Of a DNA stretch of 36,878 nucleotides, positions 28 through 28,831 are shown piece by piece. This DNA is from a virus, in the IMG/VR virus record IMGVR_UViG_3300032287_003495, positions 1 through 36,878 of that record; one strand, 5' to 3'. The translations under genes and the position numbers were made by a program. The notes below the pieces were generated by a model that did not search any database, was not told the DNA's origin, and saw only the letters and a program-made list of their open reading frames with translations. Numbering within the stretch: the first letter of the stretch is position 1; every line of letters starts with the position of its first letter.

Positions 28-927
28 ATGACACACGCCCTTGCTACTGGTAAGACCCTTGCTTCCAAATACCCTTCCCTCGGCGCTTCGGTGGTCACTG
101 GCCGCGTCCCTCTTGGGCGCATGCTCGGCCTGGTTGTTGGCGAAGCAGGCTCTGGCAAATCGTTCCTCCTTCAGTCCAATCCCAATGCCTTCATCATCAA
201 CCTCGACGAGACGCCTGCTGTTTGCTCGACGAGCGAGGCGGTGATGTGGCCCACCCCCGGCGTCGATGGCCGGGCGCAGGACGAGCGGGGTAACCCCATG
301 GTCCTGTCGTGGAAGTTGGTTGAGGAGAAGCACAAGCAGCTGATTGACCTTGCCGTCCGCAATCAGCCGCGACCTGAGACCGTGGTCATCGACACGCTTG
401 GTGCAGCCATCCGCCTGCTGCGTCCGCACATCGCCAGCCTGTACGGTCGCGAGAAGTTCACCGACGTCGACGGCCGACTGGGATGGGAGCGTCTGTTCGA
501 TACCCTGATCGAGTTCGGTGCATCACTGCGCCGTCACGGTTACGGTGTCTTCTACATCGCGCACCTGTCCCGCAAGCACATCCCGCTTTCCGAGAACCAG
601 CATGTCGAGGAGTACAAGATCCTCATCTCGGATGGCCTGTACGCACGCATGTTCCCCATGTTCGATCTGGTTGTCCCCATCACCACCACCTGGGATGTCA
701 TCGAGGAATCCCGCGAGGTCGAGGTGAAGGTCGGCGACCGCATCATCAAGAAGACCAACGTCAGCAGCAAGAAGGTGCGCCAGCACTTTGCAACGTTCTC
801 AAACCCAAAGCTCGAGGGCATCGCCAAGGTCCGCACCATGCAACCCATGGAAACCCTAAAGCTTCCGCCGGAAGCAGCATGGGCTGCACTTCAGTCTGCG
901 TATGACGCGGCGAACGCGCCCCGCTGA
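28..927 (+). CDS. Sak4-type RecA-like ATPase (single-strand annealing / recombination ATPase)
   Basis: Protein of 299 residues. A clear Walker A loop, GEAGSGKS, lies at residues 38-45 and a Walker B strand, TVVIDT, ends at about D122. The order of strands, the size and a single NTPase core fit the phage AAA_24/Sak4 family, RecA-like ATPases that assist annealing of single-stranded DNA during recombination-dependent replication or repair in the cytoplasm. No DNA-helicase or second ATPase domain is visible. The start at 28 is supported by AAGG six bases upstream. It sits directly before a protein that looks like an ssDNA-binding partner, which is the usual context of Sak4 in phages. Family membership is judged from motifs and context only. 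A generic phage nucleotide-binding protein is the main alternative. Confidence 0.8.
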   Translation: MTHALATGKTLASKYPSLGASVVTGRVPLGRMLGLVVGEAGSGKSFLLQSNPNAFIINLDETPAVCSTSEAVMWPTPGVDGRAQDERGNPMVLSWKLVEEKHKQLIDLAVRNQPRPETVVIDTLGAAIRLLRPHIASLYGREKFTDVDGRLGWERLFDTLIEFGASLRRHGYGVFYIAHLSRKHIPLSENQHVEEYKILISDGLYARMFPMFDLVVPITTTWDVIEESREVEVKVGDRIIKKTNVSSKKVRQHFATFSNPKLEGIAKVRTMQPMETLKLPPEAAWAALQSAYDAANAPR

Positions 928-7323: not shown

Positions 7324-8526
7324 TTACTGGTTAAAGTCGCCGTTGGACATAGACATTCCGAGCTGCTGCAACAAATCTTGGCGGGGCACCCCACCAATCA
7401 CAACCGCGCCCTGGGGCAGCAAACGCCCAGCGGCTACCCGCATGTACACGTCAGGGGCCTCCATTTGCAACTGGGAGAGGTTGCTGTCAATGGCACGCTG
7501 CATGCTCATCTTGACGTCCCGCTGGGCCATCAGGCCAAGGGCGTCTCGACGGGCCATCTTGGTAAGTTCGTCGTCGCTTCGCTCCTGTGCGTCGCGTCGT
7601 TCGCCCGACATCCTCATCAAGCCGCCAATCAATGCACCAGCAGCAACCGCACCAAGGCCCTTGCCAAAGTTCTTGGTACCCGTCATGAACGGGGTTTCGG
7701 ACTGACCGGGCATTAGACGACGGCTGTACTTGAAAGCTTTGAGCGGATTCCGCAGGTTGGCCAGACTTTGAGCCCGATTGGCCTTGCGGCCTGCAGCCAA
7801 CCTCTTTTCCTTCTTGGGACGAGCGAGCTCTTCCTGTTGTAATTTGCGGAATCGCTTGCGCGCCGCGTAGTCCTCAGGCAACTCAACGTACTTGCGCTCG
7901 CCGGTCTCCTTGTTGACGCCAATGCTGACAAGTCTGCCTTCTCGCCCGCGTTCGCGGCGAACAGAACTTGGAGTTCCCTGGCCAAATTTTTCAGGCAACT
8001 CATTAACTGGAAGACCAGTATCCGGATCAAGCTTTAGCGGAGGAACATCTATTGGGCCGCCGGTATCTGGATCAATACCCATCAGCTCAAGATTGCCGCG
8101 ACCGCGCAAATCAAATTGAGGACCGGCTGCAGTGCCACGTTGTGGAACACCGCTATCAAAATCAACGCGACTTGAACGACGAGCAGAACGGCTTTCTTCA
8201 AGCGCGCGCAAAATCCTTGCGCGAACTTCAGGAGATCCCCTTGGATTTTCCGCAACAGCAGGCTCACTTGCTGGTGCAGTTGATGCAGCAGCGGCAGGTT
8301 TGGACTTAACTAGTTCACCGAATTCAGCAGGGGCCGGTGCCTCTGTTCCGAAATTTGGATTGAATTCTTCCTGAAGCCTATCTATGGCGCTTTTTCGGAA
8401 AAGGACTTGATCCCCATCCTGAAGCTGCTGAATACCATTGGACTTAATTAGTTCCCAGAATTTTGCTGGGTTGCCACCAGTCAGCTCTATGGCTTCTGCG
8501 ACTGAGTAAAAAAGTTTCCTAGCCAT
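7324..8526 (-). CDS. Virion-associated protein with N-terminal excisionase/MerR-like helix-turn-helix, 400 aa
   Basis: The start is set at ATG 8526 (MARKLFYSVAEA), which overlaps the previous stop by 8 bases. A further 26 codons upstream in frame look like shadow sequence. Residues 5-55 (YSVAEAIELTGG, KFWELIKSNGIQ, DGDQVLFRKSAIDRL) match the shape of an excisionase/MerR-like (HTH_17-type) winged helix: a helical pair, then a DG turn, a strand with FR, and a final helix. A Pro/Ala-rich linker and a strongly basic middle (about 185-270) follow, then a hydrophobic Gly/Ala segment at 289-304 (GKGLGAVAAGALIGGL) and a helical tail. It sits in the block of probable ejected proteins, so it may bind the phage DNA in the capsid or during entry. 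The domain call is by eye, and the function is inference. Confidence 0.65.
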   Translation of the reverse strand: MARKLFYSVAEAIELTGGNPAKFWELIKSNGIQQLQDGDQVLFRKSAIDRLQEEFNPNFGTEAPAPAEFGELVKSKPAAAASTAPASEPAVAENPRGSPEVRARILRALEESRSARRSSRVDFDSGVPQRGTAAGPQFDLRGRGNLELMGIDPDTGGPIDVPPLKLDPDTGLPVNELPEKFGQGTPSSVRRERGREGRLVSIGVNKETGERKYVELPEDYAARKRFRKLQQEELARPKKEKRLAAGRKANRAQSLANLRNPLKAFKYSRRLMPGQSETPFMTGTKNFGKGLGAVAAGALIGGLMRMSGERRDAQERSDDELTKMARRDALGLMAQRDVKMSMQRAIDSNLSQLQMEAPDVYMRVAAGRLLPQGAVVIGGVPRQDLLQQLGMSMSNGDFNQ

Positions 8527-9124
8527 TGAGGATGCTTTCCAGTTCGCCCGGCGTAAGTTGACGGCGCGATCCAATTCCGCTGATGCGGTCTGCGTCGGCT
8601 GCAATCAAGCCTTCCAGTTCGGCGGAACGGCGATTGCGAAGCACGTTGCGCTCGACATTGTTGCCAAGCAAACCCATCTGAAGTGCATCCTGGCTGTCCT
8701 TGAGACCGCGCTGCATCTCATACATGGTGGGTTCTTCAGCAGCCGCATAACCGCCCATTGCGCCCCCACCAACAGGAGCGCCCTGAGCACCCATCTGTTC
8801 CATCTCAATTTTCTGCTGGATCTCCATCTGATCGCGCATCTGCTGTTCGCGGTTCCCGTAAATCAACCGTTCCATAACGGGATATGCCAGCGTACCAACG
8901 ATAAGACCGGGAAGCCCAAGACTGCCAAGGGCTCCTCGAATCAGACCCTTCTTTGCAACCTCGCCAGCAGCACCGGCAGCAACACTCTGCGCAACCTTCT
9001 TTGCGCCCTTCTTGGCAGCCTTCTTTGCGGCCCCACCAGCAGAAGCCTTGCGCACCTTGCGCATCGCTTCGGCGGTCGAGTCGTAGGTCGACGTCATGTC
9101 GGGATATGGGTTCAGTTCGGCCAT
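8519..9124 (-). CDS. Virion-associated protein with histone-H1-like Ala/Lys tract and membrane segment, 201 aa
   Basis: Residues 22-60 are an Ala/Lys-rich tract with KKAAKKGAKKV repeats, similar in composition to the C-terminal tails of H1 histones and some bacterial HU-like proteins. A hydrophobic stretch follows at 61-88 (GALGSLGLPGLIVGTLAYPV), long enough to cross a membrane. The rest is helical and rich in Gln, Met and Glu. This combination (DNA-binding tail plus membrane-active segment) suits a small internal virion protein ejected ahead of DNA. The start at 9124 overlaps the preceding stop by one base (TAATG). The gene ends inside the start of the helix-turn-helix gene, so the two are probably translated together. 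Confidence 0.65.
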   Translation of the reverse strand: MAELNPYPDMTSTYDSTAEAMRKVRKASAGGAAKKAAKKGAKKVAQSVAAGAAGEVAKKGLIRGALGSLGLPGLIVGTLAYPVMERLIYGNREQQMRDQMEIQQKIEMEQMGAQGAPVGGGAMGGYAAAEEPTMYEMQRGLKDSQDALQMGLLGNNVERNVLRNRRSAELEGLIAADADRISGIGSRRQLTPGELESILNG

Positions 9125-15425: not shown

Positions 15426-15830
15426 CTACGGTACAACCGGCCATTTCCCCTTCGGACAAGTGGCAGCCGGCATCTTTCCTTTGATTGTCAGTTCTGCCCT
15501 GGCGCTCTCCCCGCACCCACACGCCTTGCAGAACCCCACCTGCGGATCCTCTCGGGGATTCAGGAACTCGCACGCCCGGCAGGTTGCCAGCCGCGCCTCG
15601 TACTGCCCCTCGGCCAGCTCCTGCGTGTACCGGCTAACCTCGGCCTTGACCCACGACGCCGCCTTTTGCAGCATCTTGGCAGGTGGGGCCTTCGTCCGCT
15701 CGACCCGCAGGGGGCACGTTCCGCAGCCAGCCACGTCCAGACCCTTGTGGCAAAACGGCTGGTCGACATCCAGGGACCACGACTGGCAGTCCACGCTCTC
15801 AATAATCTTGCCGTTGATGCTGATTCTCAT
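15426..15830 (-). CDS. Zinc-ribbon protein, 134 aa (DUF6171-like C-terminal half)
   Basis: The start is placed at ATG 15830, which shares an ATGA overlap with the upstream stop. There are ten Cys residues, with CxxC pairs at 36-39, 84-87 and 101-104 and further Cys at 106 and 125. The C-terminal half has the pattern R-x-x-x-C-x-x-C ... C-x-x-C-G-C ... C-P-x-G-K-W, which I associate with the phage zinc-ribbon family DUF6171, while CxxC 36-39 may form a second site with C15 and C27. A helical stretch (50-80) links them. The gene lies between the Cys-rich protein and the nozzle. It could be an assembly factor for tail proteins, but nothing proves it. Confidence 0.65.
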   Translation of the reverse strand: MRISINGKIIESVDCQSWSLDVDQPFCHKGLDVAGCGTCPLRVERTKAPPAKMLQKAASWVKAEVSRYTQELAEGQYEARLATCRACEFLNPREDPQVGFCKACGCGESARAELTIKGKMPAATCPKGKWPVVP

Positions 15831-17236
15831 GACATGGTGGGTGCTGGGCAGCAAGCAGGATTAGAAGACCCTAGAGCATCAATCATGCTGAATGAATTTC
15901 CAGACAACGAAACACCGTACTCAATTGCAGGGCCAGACACGTCAAAGAAATTGGTTGACATGTACGCACCACTAGTGCTTCCAAAAGTGCTTCCTTGGCA
16001 ACGGCAACCATTAACCGGGTCATTAAAACTATAGTTGGCAGAAACAAGACTTGAAAGAAATGTGTAGGTGTACTGCGGTGCTGCATACCAAGTAGCAATT
16101 GTTCCGCCGCTTGAGTAATACGGACCATCCCACAAGTACGGACCATCAATGCAATTACTGCAAGTGGTTGGTGGGATAGTTGGACACGCAGATCCTATCC
16201 ACGTGTTATTTCCGTTGGCAGCAAATGTGGTTGATCCAGTTTGTGACGCTTGGCCAAGAACACTATTGATCTTGTTAGCAAGAGTTGACGACTTGCATCC
16301 TGGACCTTCAAGCCTAAAGATACAGCCATCAATTTGAATACGGTCGCCACCGTTCCACGCGTTTCCAAATCCATCTCCAACCCAACCAGTTCCGTCACCA
16401 ACCGAATACGGGCAGCTGCGAGTAATTGAAAACGCAAACGAGTATGTTCGATACTCTGGAGCAATCTGTTGAATGCTGCAAGAAAAATTGCCACGAACAA
16501 TACATGACGGATTGCCGCCACATGGATCTGTTGGGAAAAGAAGATTGCAGTTATTTGGCGCAGCAATCTGGTTGCTGTAATTCATGCTCGTTGGAGCACT
16601 AACAGGGTTAAATGTAACGCAATCAGTACATGGCGCCTGATCTGGAGTGCACTGAGTTGGAACACCATAAAACAAACCCGGGAACTCACCAAGGTTCCAT
16701 TGCGTAGTAATCGTTCCAATCTTCTTTACGCACGGATCTGGAAATGCAGGATTGCAAGGATCATCAATTCCTCCCTTGCAATACGCGTCAGTCCAGACAT
16801 AAGTAAGAGTGATGTCAGTGCCACAGCCAATACCACCAGTCCACGTATCTGGTCCAAAGTAGTAACCGAGACCCTGAATGTCAGGGCACAACGTGTTGCA
16901 ACCAAGACCTACCGGCTTGTCATAGATCCCGTAAAGGGTGCCAATGTTTCGAGTAGATGTCGGCGTGGGATCGCATGAAGACACAAAGGTGAAATCGTTC
17001 ACCACATACAAGCAACCACCAAGCACCATGATGTAGCACTTTGTTGGATCTAGCGCTTCTGGCAAACCAATTGTCTCTCGGTACGAATCACAGAACGTGA
17101 TTGTTGGAATGCAGGTTGCAACTGCACCCGCACACGTAAATACACAAGAACCAGAAGGTGTACAGACAGAAGCAGTCCACTGCTTTACTTTCCCACCGGC
17201 GCAACAGCATTTCCTCCGGACAAGCAGGTTCATCAT
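15827..17236 (-). CDS. Cysteine-rich protein, 469 aa, probable tail-surface protein
   Basis: The protein holds 34 Cys (about 7%), including CCC at residues 10-12 and many C-x2-5-C pairs, together with Gly, Thr, Asn, Pro, Tyr and aromatic residues. It has very few charged residues. There is no cleavable signal peptide and no zinc-finger periodicity; the spacing looks more like disulfide-bonded or metal-clustered extracellular proteins. The gene is noticeably richer in A+T (roughly 45% GC by hand count of several lines) than its neighbours, suggesting separate origin. It starts four bases inside the fibre gene's end (ATGA overlap) and ends with another ATGA overlap, so expression is coupled to fibre and zinc-ribbon proteins. 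I suspect a receptor-binding or fibre-associated protein. No family is recognised. Confidence 0.65.
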   Translation of the reverse strand: MMNLLVRRKCCCAGGKVKQWTASVCTPSGSCVFTCAGAVATCIPTITFCDSYRETIGLPEALDPTKCYIMVLGGCLYVVNDFTFVSSCDPTPTSTRNIGTLYGIYDKPVGLGCNTLCPDIQGLGYYFGPDTWTGGIGCGTDITLTYVWTDAYCKGGIDDPCNPAFPDPCVKKIGTITTQWNLGEFPGLFYGVPTQCTPDQAPCTDCVTFNPVSAPTSMNYSNQIAAPNNCNLLFPTDPCGGNPSCIVRGNFSCSIQQIAPEYRTYSFAFSITRSCPYSVGDGTGWVGDGFGNAWNGGDRIQIDGCIFRLEGPGCKSSTLANKINSVLGQASQTGSTTFAANGNNTWIGSACPTIPPTTCSNCIDGPYLWDGPYYSSGGTIATWYAAPQYTYTFLSSLVSANYSFNDPVNGCRCQGSTFGSTSGAYMSTNFFDVSGPAIEYGVSLSGNSFSMIDALGSSNPACCPAPTMS

Positions 17237-20191: not shown

Positions 20192-20326
20192 TCAGTAGCC
20201 CTTCTTGCCGAACAGGCCGCTCATCTTCTTGCCGCAGTTGCAACCAGCCTTGCCGCACGAACACTTCTTTCCCATGGGCGGCTTGGTTGCACCCTGAATC
20301 TTCTTGACCATTTTGGACATCTTCAT
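20192..20326 (-). CDS. Tiny Cys/Lys-rich protein, 44 aa
   Basis: The frame reads MKMSKMVKKIQGATKPPMGK, then KCSCGKAGCNCGKK, then MSGLFGKKGY and stop. The start shares an ATGA overlap with the upstream stop, and the stop lies one base before the next start, so it fits the operon exactly. Four Cys occur as C-S-C and C-N-C pairs within ten residues, enough to hold a metal ion, surrounded by Lys. No family is recognised. Its neighbours are other very small basic proteins, so a DNA-binding or capsid-interior role is a reasonable guess only. Confidence 0.7.
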   Translation of the reverse strand: MKMSKMVKKIQGATKPPMGKKCSCGKAGCNCGKKMSGLFGKKGY

Positions 20327-20694
20327 TTGACCAGCTTCCTTACTCGCCTCAGTGGCGAAACCTTCTTGCCGAACGCGCCGTGCATACCAACACGGCTCTT
20401 CTCCGACTTCTTCCTTGCAAGTTCACCGCCGCTCATTTCGCCCTTTGTCTTGGGCGTCTTGCTGCTGACGCGGCGGGTGGGGCGGCAATACTCGGTGGAC
20501 CCACCCGCGCCGCACGCCTTGCCGCTCTTGGTGTCCTGCCACTTCTCTGCGCCCCAGCGCTTGAGATTAGCGCCCGCCTGCGTCTTCCGCACATTGCCAC
20601 TGGCCTTCCGGCACTTGGCCGTGGCCTGCGCTGCACGCGCCGACCACTTGCCGTACGAAGCCATTGCCTTGCGATAGCACGCGTCTTTTGCCAT
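20323..20694 (-). CDS. Basic Cys-containing protein, 123 aa (DUF5872-like)
   Basis: The protein is very rich in Lys, Arg, Ala and Ser. The N-terminal half is helical (KWSARAAQATAKCRKASGNV), followed by LKRWGAEKWQDTKSGKACG and YCRPTRRVSSKTPKTKGEM. That combination (W-x-x-E-K-W, K-x-C-G, then C-R-P-x-x-R-V-S-S-K-T-P-x-T) recalls the DUF5872 proteins of phages and other aquatic viruses, whose role is unknown. Four Cys (6, 28, 61, 70) could bind a metal. Start and stop overlap the neighbouring genes by one and four bases. The family name is from memory of the pattern and should be tested. Confidence 0.6.
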   Translation of the reverse strand: MAKDACYRKAMASYGKWSARAAQATAKCRKASGNVRKTQAGANLKRWGAEKWQDTKSGKACGAGGSTEYCRPTRRVSSKTPKTKGEMSGGELARKKSEKSRVGMHGAFGKKVSPLRRVRKLVK

Positions 20695-21673: not shown

Positions 21674-23299
21674 TCACTCGCCGTACTGGCGATCGGTGGT
21701 AACACCAGTGAGCTTCATGCCGGACGGCTGATCCGGGACGAGCTGCATACGCAGCATGCCCGGCATCTGCATGCCTTCCGTCACCAGCGTGCTGTTGCCA
21801 GACACGCGCTGGATCGGCACCTTGACGTCCGCGTAGCCCAGGGCCGGGCCGACGAACTCGAACGGGATGAAGCCTTCCGCCTTGTCGAACTTCTGGGTCC
21901 CCTTAGGGGACGGCGGGACGTACTTCTTCCAGTTGGAGCCACCCTTGCGGACGCCGTACACGGTGCCGTCCTCGATGTAGTTCGAGGTGTAGCCCGTGTA
22001 GGTGCGGCCGTCGAAGGTGAACTTGAAGCCCTCCTGCGAACCTTCGTTGGTGAGGCTCGACAGGCGGTTGGTGCGGTCCAGCTGGTACTGGCCGATCTTC
22101 TGGGCTTCGTAGTTCAGCCACACACCGTCGCTCGCAATGAGGCAGTCGATGTACTGGCCGTACTTCTCCTTCGCACGGTGGTAGCCGCGCAGGTACTGAC
22201 GCATCTTGTGCTCGGTCAGCGTGCCAACGCTGGTCTTGAAGAACGACTTGAACTCCGGGTGCGTGTCAACGTTGATGGCGTTAGCCGAATCGTAGTCGCC
22301 GCCAAGGAGGTTGCCGGTGCTCTTCAGCCAGCTGTTGATGCCTGCAAAACCGTAGCCGTTGGAGCCAGTGGTCGTGCCGCTGGCAGCGCCGGTCTTGCGG
22401 GCGTTGGCGAAGTACACGTAGTAGGTCGCCGTGCTCGTGCTAAAGCCAAGCGAGCTGAGCGCCTGGCCAAACGCGATGGTGACCTTGTTGGTGACTTCAT
22501 CAACAGCAGCAACCCAAGCCGAGATGCGCGTCGTCGTGTTCTGACCAGCAGCAGTGCTAGCAGAATCGTTGATGCGGATCTGGTTGGACGAGCCTTCAAA
22601 GATGTCAACGCGCATGCCGACGGCATAACGGTCGATGTTCTTCTCGGGCACCTGGAACCGGACCGCAGTAACAGCGGTGCTGGTAGCAGCAGCGGCGAAC
22701 GTAGCCGGGGTAGTCGTCAGGAAGTTGGTGGAGTACTCGGCCAGAGCAGTGCTGTAGGTCAGCGTGCTCAGCTGGTAGTTCGCGTTCTCGGCGAGATACC
22801 AGTAGTTGCACAGGGTGTGCGCCATCAGGCGCGCGTGACCCTCGAGCTTCGGGCCGATCACTTCGCCGATAAAGGCCGGGGTGGCTTCAGCCGTCATCTC
22901 GCCGAGCGACATGTACAGGTTGGAGACCATGGCCTTCATGCCGACGCCGAGACGGTACGGCTTGGCCATCACGCCATCGGTGGCGTCCGGCCAAGTGTTG
23001 GTGTTGGACTGCTGCTGCAGCTTCGCACCAATGTCCGTGACGGTCTTGTCGCCGTACAGCACGAAGTTGTTGGTGTTGTCACCCATGTCGAGCACACCGG
23101 CCATCGAGCCCATGAAGATCTTGAGGATCTTGAGGTCACGACCGATGAGAGACGCGGGACCAACGCCCTGGCTGGTCACGAACGTGTCGCGCCATGCCGG
23201 GTCGAGTGCCGGGAGGAAGAGCTCAATGTTCTTATTGAGGACTTCCTGGATCCGGTCACTCTGCTTGTCAAACAGAGAACCAGTAGTTGCAAAAGCCAT
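21674..23299 (-). CDS. Major capsid protein (HK97 fold) with an inserted beta domain, 541 aa
   Basis: Position after portal and scaffold, size, and sequence style identify the major capsid protein. The N-terminal arm (1-60) includes LFLPALDPAWRDTFVTSQG. A beta/helix part with MKAMVSNLYMSLGEMTAEAT and KLEGHARLMAHTLCNYWYLA follows. Residues about 195-305 form a Thr/Ser/Ala-rich beta domain (FQVPEKNIDRYAVGMRVDIF, VDEVTNKVTIAFG, TATYYVYFANARK) that interrupts the core like the insertion (I-) domains of other large capsid proteins. Then comes the P-domain-like region with FKSFFKTSVGTLTEHKMRQY and YIDCLIASDGVWLNYEAQKI. It has the strongest ribosome binding site seen in the window and its own terminator, as expected for the most abundant product. 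Confidence 0.85.
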   Translation of the reverse strand: MAFATTGSLFDKQSDRIQEVLNKNIELFLPALDPAWRDTFVTSQGVGPASLIGRDLKILKIFMGSMAGVLDMGDNTNNFVLYGDKTVTDIGAKLQQQSNTNTWPDATDGVMAKPYRLGVGMKAMVSNLYMSLGEMTAEATPAFIGEVIGPKLEGHARLMAHTLCNYWYLAENANYQLSTLTYSTALAEYSTNFLTTTPATFAAAATSTAVTAVRFQVPEKNIDRYAVGMRVDIFEGSSNQIRINDSASTAAGQNTTTRISAWVAAVDEVTNKVTIAFGQALSSLGFSTSTATYYVYFANARKTGAASGTTTGSNGYGFAGINSWLKSTGNLLGGDYDSANAINVDTHPEFKSFFKTSVGTLTEHKMRQYLRGYHRAKEKYGQYIDCLIASDGVWLNYEAQKIGQYQLDRTNRLSSLTNEGSQEGFKFTFDGRTYTGYTSNYIEDGTVYGVRKGGSNWKKYVPPSPKGTQKFDKAEGFIPFEFVGPALGYADVKVPIQRVSGNSTLVTEGMQMPGMLRMQLVPDQPSGMKLTGVTTDRQYGE

Positions 23300-26229: not shown

Positions 26230-26482
26230 TGGTGTCCGCCTTCTTCTTCACACGGGCCCAACCGGGAGGCATATCTTCCAAGAGGTCGATTCCGTTGAAA
26301 TTGCTGTTGATGAATTGTTCGTCGGTCTGCGGTCGCTCGAGTGGCTGTTGGACAACCTGCTGCGGCTCGCGCCGTCCCGTGTAGTACGACTCAACAAGCA
26401 TGTTGAAGTACGACAGGGGAATCGTGACGGTCAACTGGCCGGGAGTCGGGCGGGGTGCTTCGTACTGGATATGGTCAGACAC
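26219..26482 (-). CDS. Hypothetical protein, 87 aa, between terminase and portal
   Basis: This is a short protein with a strand-forming start (GQLTVTIPLSYFNMLVESYY), a Gln/Pro-rich middle and a basic end (PGWARVKKKADTNGK). It overlaps the terminase stop by 8 bases and the portal start by 11, so all three are made from one message with coupled translation. Small genes in this position are often packaging or portal accessories. No family is recognised. Confidence 0.7.
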   Translation of the reverse strand: MSDHIQYEAPRPTPGQLTVTIPLSYFNMLVESYYTGRREPQQVVQQPLERPQTDEQFINSNFNGIDLLEDMPPGWARVKKKADTNGK

Positions 26483-28442
26483 GCGATCCTCCGCTCTTGG
26501 TGGGTGGTTCCTTCATGATACGAAGGGCATCCTCAACCGAGATGTTATTGAAATTCATGGCGTCCGCAATGTTCAACCCGTACTTCTTGTCGACATAGTT
26601 GCCCTCCGCAATCTCTTCAAGAGGGTTCTCAATGACCAGGCGGCTGTCGTCGTCGGCCACCGCCACGGCCCGTTCCATGCGTCCCCGGACCACGAACATG
26701 CTCATGGCCACCGTGTCGATGAAATCGTCGTGGGCCAGACCGCCGTTTTCGGCGTCCGGGTTGAACTGCTCGATCTGCTCAAACAGCATCCGCCAGGGGT
26801 TCAGACCCCGACGCCAGGTGGGGAGCTTGATGAGGCCGTGCTCAAACCGGTAGTTCAGGGCGCTGATCTTGGAGGTTTTGTCCATGACACCGGGGTTCAG
26901 CTTCATGACCTTGGGCGGCGTCATGCCCGTGATCTGGTCTGCCCGCTGCCTGACCATGGATTCCATGGCCGCGTACAGGCTGAACGACTGCCGGACCACC
27001 TCCACGTGGATGGCCGGCACGTGCCACTTCATGGCCAGCCGGAAGGCGTGCTCAATCAGAACCGGCTCCCGAACCTGCCCGCCCCACGTGTCCAGCACAA
27101 ACAGGACCGCGTCCACCGGGTCGTAGGCCATGACCGTACAGACCTTGAAGTCCGAATCAGTGGTCGAGGTGTACGACGTGTCAACCGTCGCAAACAACTT
27201 GACCCGGCCTGACAGGAACTCTGGCAACGGCATCCGTTCGGTGTCGCCCGTCTTGTTCTTCCAGCAGAAGGTTGACTTCGAGAGATGCGGATCGGTGTCA
27301 CTTTCTGAATCCGGGTTCTCAAGCCACCAGCCGTGGCGCTCCTGGGTGATGTTGCCGAAGTAGACCTCTTCCGACTCACCGGGCTGCGCCAGGTACTCGG
27401 CGTTGTAATTGTGGGTGCCGATCATCTCCTTGATGTCTTCAAGGGTGATGAGGCCCTTCAGGCTCTCCTTGGCATCCCGAACCTTCCGGTTGATGGGCCA
27501 CATTGCGGGCCACGCACTTTGTTGCGTGCCGTCTTCGTCCGTGTACTCAGACCGCAGGATCAACCGGGCCCACTGGTCAAAGCGGGGATCCTTCGCCACT
27601 TTGCTCCCATCCGCCAGCAACTCAGTCATCATCGCGTGCCACGCGTAGTGCCGCCGACTCACGAACGTAGCCAGCCACCGGACACTGGTATCACGCCGTG
27701 TCACCATTGGCATCACGACCTTGAACAGCAAACGCTCCATGTACGACCGCAGGATCGACATGCTGGTCGACGCCTTGGGGTCATACTCCGGGTCATCGAG
27801 CGCGTACACGCGCGGGCGACCGCCACGCTGGCGGCTCTCGGCGCTCATCGCTCGGAACCACGAACCGTTGTTCAGGTACATGAGTTCGACGCCGAAGGAT
27901 GCCTCGCCGCGCTTGGGCGTGATGCGTCCATCGGGGAACTCGGGCGCAATGTCGTCGAAGATCCGCTTGTTGCCGATGAACTGCGTCTTCAGGATCTGGC
28001 TCGTCTGCTCCGCATTGTCAACGCTGCTCGTAGCGTAGATAAAGGAGAAAGCCGGACGCGTGAGCATCTGGAGGAGTGCAGTCTTTCGGAAGCAATTGCT
28101 CTTGGCGTATCCACGCGGTGCAATGGCAATGGATCGGGGGGACATGGCCCACATCCGATAGATAGCAAAGTGTCCTGCTGGCGGATCAACTGGATCATCG
28201 TCATAGAAGTACGGGTTGAAGTCCTCTTCCCAGTCGGGATGGAGATACCACTGGTCAAAGAAATTGACGCTGCCCGCAAACCGCGTTGCCTTCACCCGCA
28301 AGTCGTTGGTGGGGACAAGCCACTGCGAGCACGCGTTGACGCGAGCAAGCCGCTGGCCCTCAGGCGTAAGCGTGAGGTAGTCGGCAGGCAACGGCCACAT
28401 GGCGTTGCCCTCTTCCGGCATTGGGATGCCAACCGGGTTCAC
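26475..28442 (-). CDS. Terminase large subunit (DNA-packaging ATPase and nuclease), 655 aa
   Basis: This is the motor that pumps and cuts phage DNA at the portal. Counting from GTG 28442, the ATPase domain has a Walker A-like loop APRGYAKS at 108-115 and a Walker B strand VYALDD at 212-217, with a possible coupling motif around 255-262 (RWLATFVS). The C-terminal RNase-H-like nuclease shows ATVD (D421), D431, E481 in IHVEVVRQS and D572/D573 with D576 in LAHDDFIDTVAM. I chose GTG 28442 because it shares a GTGA overlap with the upstream stop. An in-frame ATG at 28511 would lie well inside the upstream gene. The length is a little above the usual 500-600. Confidence 0.9.
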   Translation of the reverse strand: MNPVGIPMPEEGNAMWPLPADYLTLTPEGQRLARVNACSQWLVPTNDLRVKATRFAGSVNFFDQWYLHPDWEEDFNPYFYDDDPVDPPAGHFAIYRMWAMSPRSIAIAPRGYAKSNCFRKTALLQMLTRPAFSFIYATSSVDNAEQTSQILKTQFIGNKRIFDDIAPEFPDGRITPKRGEASFGVELMYLNNGSWFRAMSAESRQRGGRPRVYALDDPEYDPKASTSMSILRSYMERLLFKVVMPMVTRRDTSVRWLATFVSRRHYAWHAMMTELLADGSKVAKDPRFDQWARLILRSEYTDEDGTQQSAWPAMWPINRKVRDAKESLKGLITLEDIKEMIGTHNYNAEYLAQPGESEEVYFGNITQERHGWWLENPDSESDTDPHLSKSTFCWKNKTGDTERMPLPEFLSGRVKLFATVDTSYTSTTDSDFKVCTVMAYDPVDAVLFVLDTWGGQVREPVLIEHAFRLAMKWHVPAIHVEVVRQSFSLYAAMESMVRQRADQITGMTPPKVMKLNPGVMDKTSKISALNYRFEHGLIKLPTWRRGLNPWRMLFEQIEQFNPDAENGGLAHDDFIDTVAMSMFVVRGRMERAVAVADDDSRLVIENPLEEIAEGNYVDKKYGLNIADAMNFNNISVEDALRIMKEPPTKSGGSRV

Positions 28443-28831
28443 AGACCCACCATCTTGCGCTGCATCCCCTTGATCGCGACCAGCTCGACAGCGGCCATGC
28501 GAAGGATGCAAGCAGCAAGAAACGCAGGCTCGTCGGCAGCCGGTGCAACCGCAACAATCTCGGTAGCTGCGTCAACCCAGCGCTGATGGAAGACGTGGTT
28601 GTTCGCCTTGATGCGCTCGATGATTGCGTTGCCAAGTTCCGAGAGTTCGCCCCACCAGGTAGCGGGGTCATTGATGCCCATTGAGAACAGAATGGGTGCG
28701 CCGCCACGTGCGGCCTGCAATCCATCCATTGCTGCAATGCGGGCAAACGCCTTACCGATCTGCGGTTCCATGTCCGCGAGATGGCAGGTAGACGGCGGCG
28801 ATAGTTCCGGTTGTGTCTTCTGAGATTGCAC
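28439..28831 (-). CDS. Hypothetical helical protein upstream of the large terminase, 130 aa
   Basis: I set the start at GTG 28831, where AGGAGG lies seven bases upstream. ATGs at 28891 and 28771 in the same frame lack a comparable site. The protein is Ala-rich and helical (IGKAFARIAAMDGLQAARG, WWGELSELGNAIIERIKANN, EPAFLAACILRMAAVELVAI). Its stop overlaps the terminase start (GTGA). Position directly before the large subunit is where the small terminase subunit usually lies, but I see no helix-turn-helix. Its 5' end overlaps the preceding gene by 80 bases. Function is unassigned; a packaging accessory is the likeliest idea. Confidence 0.6.
   Translation of the reverse strand: MQSQKTQPELSPPSTCHLADMEPQIGKAFARIAAMDGLQAARGGAPILFSMGINDPATWWGELSELGNAIIERIKANNHVFHQRWVDAATEIVAVAPAADEPAFLAACILRMAAVELVAIKGMQRKMVGL

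Follow-up and report, generated by a model that had tools for sequence, protein, structure and literature searches.

Genes and features of the locus

The window, meaning the whole stretch of 36,878 nucleotides analysed here, corresponds to positions 1 to 36,878 of the IMG/VR virus record IMGVR_UViG_3300032287_003495. Its terminase gene, its probable capsid gene and a sub-threshold match to the SU10 adaptor family together mark it as the structural cassette of a tailed phage, and this phage is probably podovirus-like. Table 1 lists the features of the locus.

Table 1. Coordinates of the genes and sequence features of the locus within the window
Feature	Position	Strand	Remarks
Large downstream virion-type gene P0005	12701..15415	-	904 aa
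Long-form zinc-ribbon protein P0003, proposed companion of P0001	15426..15830	-	134 aa, start codon ATG at 15830; phrog_13558, weak DUF6171
Predicted zinc-ribbon core C84xxC87...C101xxC104GC106...K117...C125...W130	15441..15581	-	Six invariant cysteines
Long-form helical segment, residues 50-86 of P0003, conserved A63 and S66	15573..15683	-	Precedes and enters the ribbon core; confidently modelled
ATGA shared by the stop of P0001 and the start of P0003	15827..15830	-	Read from the sequence
Cys-rich protein gene P0001	15827..17236	-	Product of 469 aa with 34 Cys; proposed as a distal-tail or receptor-binding protein stabilised by disulfides
CCC triplet codons, residues 10-12 of P0001	17201..17209	-	Invariant in the 7-member family
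Upstream fibre-like gene P0002	17233..18258	-	341 aa; conserved -CP end; ATGA overlap with P0001
Head-tail adaptor candidate P0004	18258..19415	-	20.7 bits with Pfam SU10_adaptor (cut-off 27 bits)
Probable major capsid protein	21674..23299	-	By position and size only
Large terminase subunit	26475..28511	-	phrog_38

The earlier note had described P0001 as a 469-residue product with 34 cysteines, encoded by a gene with a GC content below that of its neighbours and with four-base overlaps on both sides, and each of these points was confirmed. Cysteine accounts for 7.2% of the protein, and histidine is absent from it. The GC content of the gene is 0.475, against 0.55-0.63 in the adjoining genes. 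Its own amino acids and the codon usage of 13 other window genes predict a GC3 of 0.674; the observed value is 0.416, lower than in any other of the 14 genes compared. An ATGA is shared with the fibre-like gene on one side and with the ribbon gene on the other. P0002 is otherwise poor in cysteine, yet its C-terminal -CP is kept in relatives and may be a partner for an intermolecular disulfide.

The adjoining P0003 does contain the ten cysteines ascribed to it, and their pattern points to zinc binding. It is matched by the phrog_13558 profile (E = 6.8e-9), as are all 14 of the aligned ribbon members, and the match covers the ribbon core with its conserved cysteine pairs and its CPKGKW end. With Pfam DUF6171, P0003 scores below the gathering threshold (23.5 against 27 bits), and 12 of the 14 aligned members match this family, at best with E = 5e-11. 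The structural model of P0003 is good from residue 50 on and consists of two helices followed by the ribbon. A search with it returned nothing significant in the PDB, and the matches in BFVD were confined to uncharacterised proteins of uncultured phages. Short ribbon proteins of the phrog_13558/DUF6171 type share the core CxxC...CxxCGC...TCPKGKW with P0003 but lack its N-terminal helical segment. The N terminus of ribbon proteins varies greatly in length and sequence, and the part specific to the long form is small. Several of them (among others those of loci L058 and L070) carry an additional N-terminal Cys-rich motif of the type GGCC...C..C, possibly a second metal site.

Three further genes of the window deserve mention. 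The virion operon includes a gene for a 426-residue protein (7324-8604, minus strand) whose N-terminal helix-turn-helix or excisionase-like domain (HTH_17, E = 0.00096; phrog_66, E = 0.015) is odd for a structural cassette. A 123-residue protein with a DUF5872 match (E = 1.5e-10) is encoded in the structural region (20323-20694, minus strand). Finally, an AAA_24/Sak4-like ssDNA-annealing protein is encoded at the window edge (28-927, plus strand), on the strand opposite to the structural cassette.

Conservation and evolutionary rate of P0001

P0001 has no match in Pfam, PHROG or the cultured phages of INPHARED; for P0001 and those other Cys-rich partners (described below) that were scanned, Pfam gave no match and PHROG a single weak one, of unknown function. 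A profile match to PDB entry 9ce9 (E = 0.0035, 42 residues of a double-psi beta-barrel) is regarded as unreliable, and the AlphaFold model, built from 7 sequences, is poor (pLDDT 43). By contrast with these searches, IMG/VR contains five direct homologues, with identities of 88, 61, 50, 38 and 37%, and a sixth relative (L050, 30% identity) was added in the partner clustering.

Conservation of the cysteines in homologues, on which the earlier note had made its interpretation depend, was observed: they are better kept than the other residues. All 34 cysteines of P0001 are present in L002, whose other residues are 59% identical; the corresponding values are 33 of 34 and 51% for L006, and 27 of 34 and 35% for L007. 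Across the seven family members, 25 of the 34 are invariant, and cysteine is the most prominent residue among the conserved positions.

Of the genes compared between the window and L002, none evolves faster than P0001, which has 62% identity against 79-97% in its neighbours. The divergence is unevenly distributed: the first 100 residues are 86-90% identical, residues 101-350 fall to 31-67%, with the lowest values in the middle, and the last 20 residues are conserved again (74%). At the level of sequence, and apart from the conserved last 20 residues, this is how a tail protein anchored by one end and facing the host with the rest would diverge. The low GC3 is likewise found in the orthologues of L001, L002, L006 and L007 (0.26-0.48, each below its neighbours). 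The deficit is common to all orthologues checked, which makes it a long-standing property of this gene rather than evidence that the gene was imported recently.

A two-gene module in uncultivated phages

To find other loci, viral contigs were queried with the ribbon alignment alone, and the ORF directly upstream was then read. This yielded 57 long-form ribbon loci with a scorable upstream ORF, all from uncultivated phages, and in each of them this ORF is Cys-rich (3.7-13.5% Cys, 54 of them at 4% or more). The same level is reached by only 21 of 253 other ORFs of these loci and by none of the 21 ORFs upstream of short-form ribbons. Fisher tests gave 4e-16 against the short form and 4e-39 against the other ORFs, values that ignore relatedness among loci; because some loci are near-duplicates, the independent unit is the cluster. 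Gene starts were set mechanically and the background ORFs are partly spurious, which raises the background cysteine content and makes the contrast conservative. Among individual loci, the upstream ORF of L078 is doubtful, its frame being ambiguous in GC-rich DNA, L046 and L094 have upstream ORFs cut off by the contig end, and the ribbon of L100 is nearer to the short form and was grouped with the long forms for its helix-like stretch.

Whereas the ribbon proteins form one blastp cluster at 1e-5, the Cys-rich partners fall into 20 clusters at E < 1e-3, with no mutual similarity. Complete partners range from about 200 to 1297 residues and contain 17-74 cysteines. A CCC triplet occurs within the first 40 residues of 27 of 33 representative partners, when 0.48 would be expected by shuffling, and cysteine stands above the other residues in conservation in every partner pair tested, including pairs outside the family of the window. 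A start codon that overlaps the stop of the partner gene is common in the other module loci, which makes translational coupling the rule, and 14 whole records searched each contain one ribbon gene. The link between the ribbon and P0001 is thus far stronger than observation of a single window could show. P0001 and P0003 constitute a conserved two-gene module, and this suggests that P0003 is a dedicated helper for thiol-rich virion parts. Searches of open-access literature for Cys-rich phage tail proteins with zinc-ribbon partners turned up no account of such a pairing.

The module is found, as judged from gene context, in tail cassettes of both siphovirus-like and podovirus-like phages. The former are exemplified by loci with a tape-measure gene (L009 and L070) or with an Mtd_N fibre upstream (L063), the latter by the adaptor upstream in the window and by large virion-type proteins downstream, which in L056 include a CBM96 domain. 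The GC content of module loci extends from 0.30 to 0.66, which suggests diverse hosts. In one record, G009 (L086 5439-6668 / G009:C1:25750-26244), a gene for a tyrosine integrase follows the module at a short distance; at least one carrier, then, may be temperate, and prophage carriers may exist; none was found in the other twelve module records, which may be fragments. The partner of L096 (2705-4894) shows, at residues ~640-724, a weak C-terminal match to a region annotated as major tail protein in phages of Micrococcus and Arthrobacter (E = 0.03-0.04).

At the sensitivity used, no counterpart of the module was found in cultured phages or in bacterial and archaeal genomes. Pattern searches of genome contigs from 84,980 species gave 4 and 79 matches, none of them confirmed, although with patterns so strict absence is not implied. 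Against cultured phages, P0003 gave weak matches only, mostly in cyanophages: no Cys-rich partner is annotated in four of the five regions opened, and the fifth is without annotation. Queries with one Cys-rich partner and with two divergent ribbons of the long form returned no match there, and a second partner only a weak C-terminal one.

Proposed function, precedents and alternatives

The reading that we favour, at somewhat better than even, is that the module is a tail pair made up of a disulfide-locked distal-tail virion protein, probably receptor-binding, and a dedicated zinc-ribbon companion. P0001 would then act in receptor binding or adsorption, with its CCC-headed, conserved N-terminal part fixed to the tail and its variable middle turned toward the host. 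It would be synthesised reduced in the cytoplasm, and on lysis the oxidising surroundings would allow disulfides to lock its shape, perhaps covalently onto the tail. P0003, translationally coupled to P0001, would bind the thiol-rich protein, with the long-form helix and the CCC end as plausible contact sites, keep it soluble and reduced, and aid its assembly. One fixed companion whose many unrelated partners have nothing in common but a CCC start and a wealth of cysteine is what one would expect of a dedicated chaperone or adaptor. A point against the reading is that the ribbon core occurs, with all its conserved cysteines, in phages lacking a Cys-rich neighbour as well, so that the core has another role. 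Short forms keep this core yet have no such neighbour, which would leave the helical part of the long form as the leading candidate for contact with the partner.

Of the precedents found for disulfides in phage particles after release, Agrobacterium phage Milano is the best. In the excerpts of the two reports on its structure (PMC10491603, PMC10811340), virion-stabilising disulfides run through sheath, tube, baseplate and receptor-binding proteins, the last being joined covalently to the baseplate through cysteines. Milano thus resembles the module in its Cys-enriched virion proteins, but it is a myovirus with about 2% cysteine spread over many structural proteins, whereas the module concentrates 4-13% in one protein that is always followed by a zinc-ribbon protein; in those excerpts, no dedicated companion is described for Milano. 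Cysteine counts of the partners show no clear preference for even numbers, whether or not the CCC is included, and so give no indication of full intramolecular pairing. A thioredoxin-family gene was looked for in 13 module-bearing records and not found, so that oxidation would have to occur spontaneously or be driven by the host. A search for viral sulfhydryl oxidases (PF04777) was uninformative, its controls also being silent.

For the arrangement of the two genes, a parallel is offered by receptor-binding proteins with a dedicated assembly helper, of which Stf and Tfa of phage lambda are an example. In such pairs, too, a small, conserved helper gene comes after that of a variable fibre whose N terminus is conserved, but the helpers are not known to be zinc ribbons, nor the fibres to be rich in cysteine. 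The parts of the module resemble known kinds, namely disulfide-stabilised virions and a fibre with its helper, and it is their pairing that would be new.

Several other explanations have to be weighed against a departing chaperone for a disulfide-locked tail protein. The ribbon could instead be a structural adaptor that stays in the tail tip and holds the CCC end by means of mixed disulfides or a zinc site common to both proteins. An adaptor with a fixed docking motif would fit a single ribbon family serving some 20 unrelated partner clusters with only CCC and cysteine richness in common; the six invariant ribbon cysteines include two beyond the need of one zinc, and the excerpts on Milano describe receptor-binding proteins that are disulfide-joined to the baseplate. 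Set against this are the high variability of the ribbon N terminus and the small size of its long-form part, and we consider the adaptor a credible but rather unlikely alternative. The cysteines of P0001 could also bind metal, as iron-sulfur or zinc clusters, with the ribbon as a metallochaperone, and a metal-cluster-bearing tail part had been among the proposals of the earlier note. Iron-sulfur clusters are established in tail tips, in gpL of lambda and in the hub of roseophage R4C, which like the proposed role of P0001 involve structural cysteines in a distal tail protein, and the neighbouring gene encodes a zinc-ribbon-type protein. However, the R4C hub has four cysteines for one cluster, whereas the partners have 17-74 cysteines, spread along the chain. 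Their CxxC spacing, counted with the N-terminal CCC removed, is only 1.16 times the shuffled expectation, histidine amounts to 1.2% in the partners and is lacking in P0001, and no sequence relation to the hub or to iron-sulfur families was found, P0001 itself having no family match to the gpL type of tail-tip protein. Metal binding is accordingly disfavoured, and we regard it as improbable.

Two further explanations concern where P0001 acts and where its gene came from. Were it a host-acting effector, secreted or intracellular, the ribbon would be its antidote or regulator, and small coupled partner genes are indeed typical of effector/immunity pairs. But the module occupies tail cassettes in siphovirus-like and podovirus-like phages, an ATGA couples P0001 to the fibre-like gene of the window, the combination of a conserved N terminus with a variable middle suits a tail protein, and inspection by eye revealed no signal peptide at the N termini, which leaves an effector very improbable. 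The idea that the gene is a recent foreign acquisition, as cargo or moron, draws on its GC3 of 0.42 where 0.67 is expected, and the earlier note had spoken of an acquired receptor-binding protein. The receptor-binding half of that proposal accords with the fast evolution, the conserved N terminus and the tail cassettes. The acquisition half does not hold for any recent event: orthologues down to 38% identity occupy the same place with conserved cysteines and the same GC3 deficit, which largely refutes recent import, and the module recurs with identical gene order in many phages. We therefore attach scarcely any probability to it.

The tail pair with a dedicated companion can be extended to a bolder proposal, which is possible but speculative. 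Many uncultivated tailed phages would have a thiol-handling system of their own, in which a single family of ribbon chaperones or adaptors reads the N-terminal CCC as a tag. Unrelated and extremely Cys-rich adsorption proteins, built in the reducing cytoplasm and redox-locked outside the cell, would share this helper in a form portable across siphoviruses and podoviruses. If the tail-pair reading is true, the module shows a route to disulfide-rich phage surface proteins despite the reducing bacterial cytoplasm, and it may provide a helper for making Cys-rich proteins in bacteria. The combination of a CCC protein with a long-form ribbon would then mark the probable receptor-binding protein in a large number of dark phage genomes.
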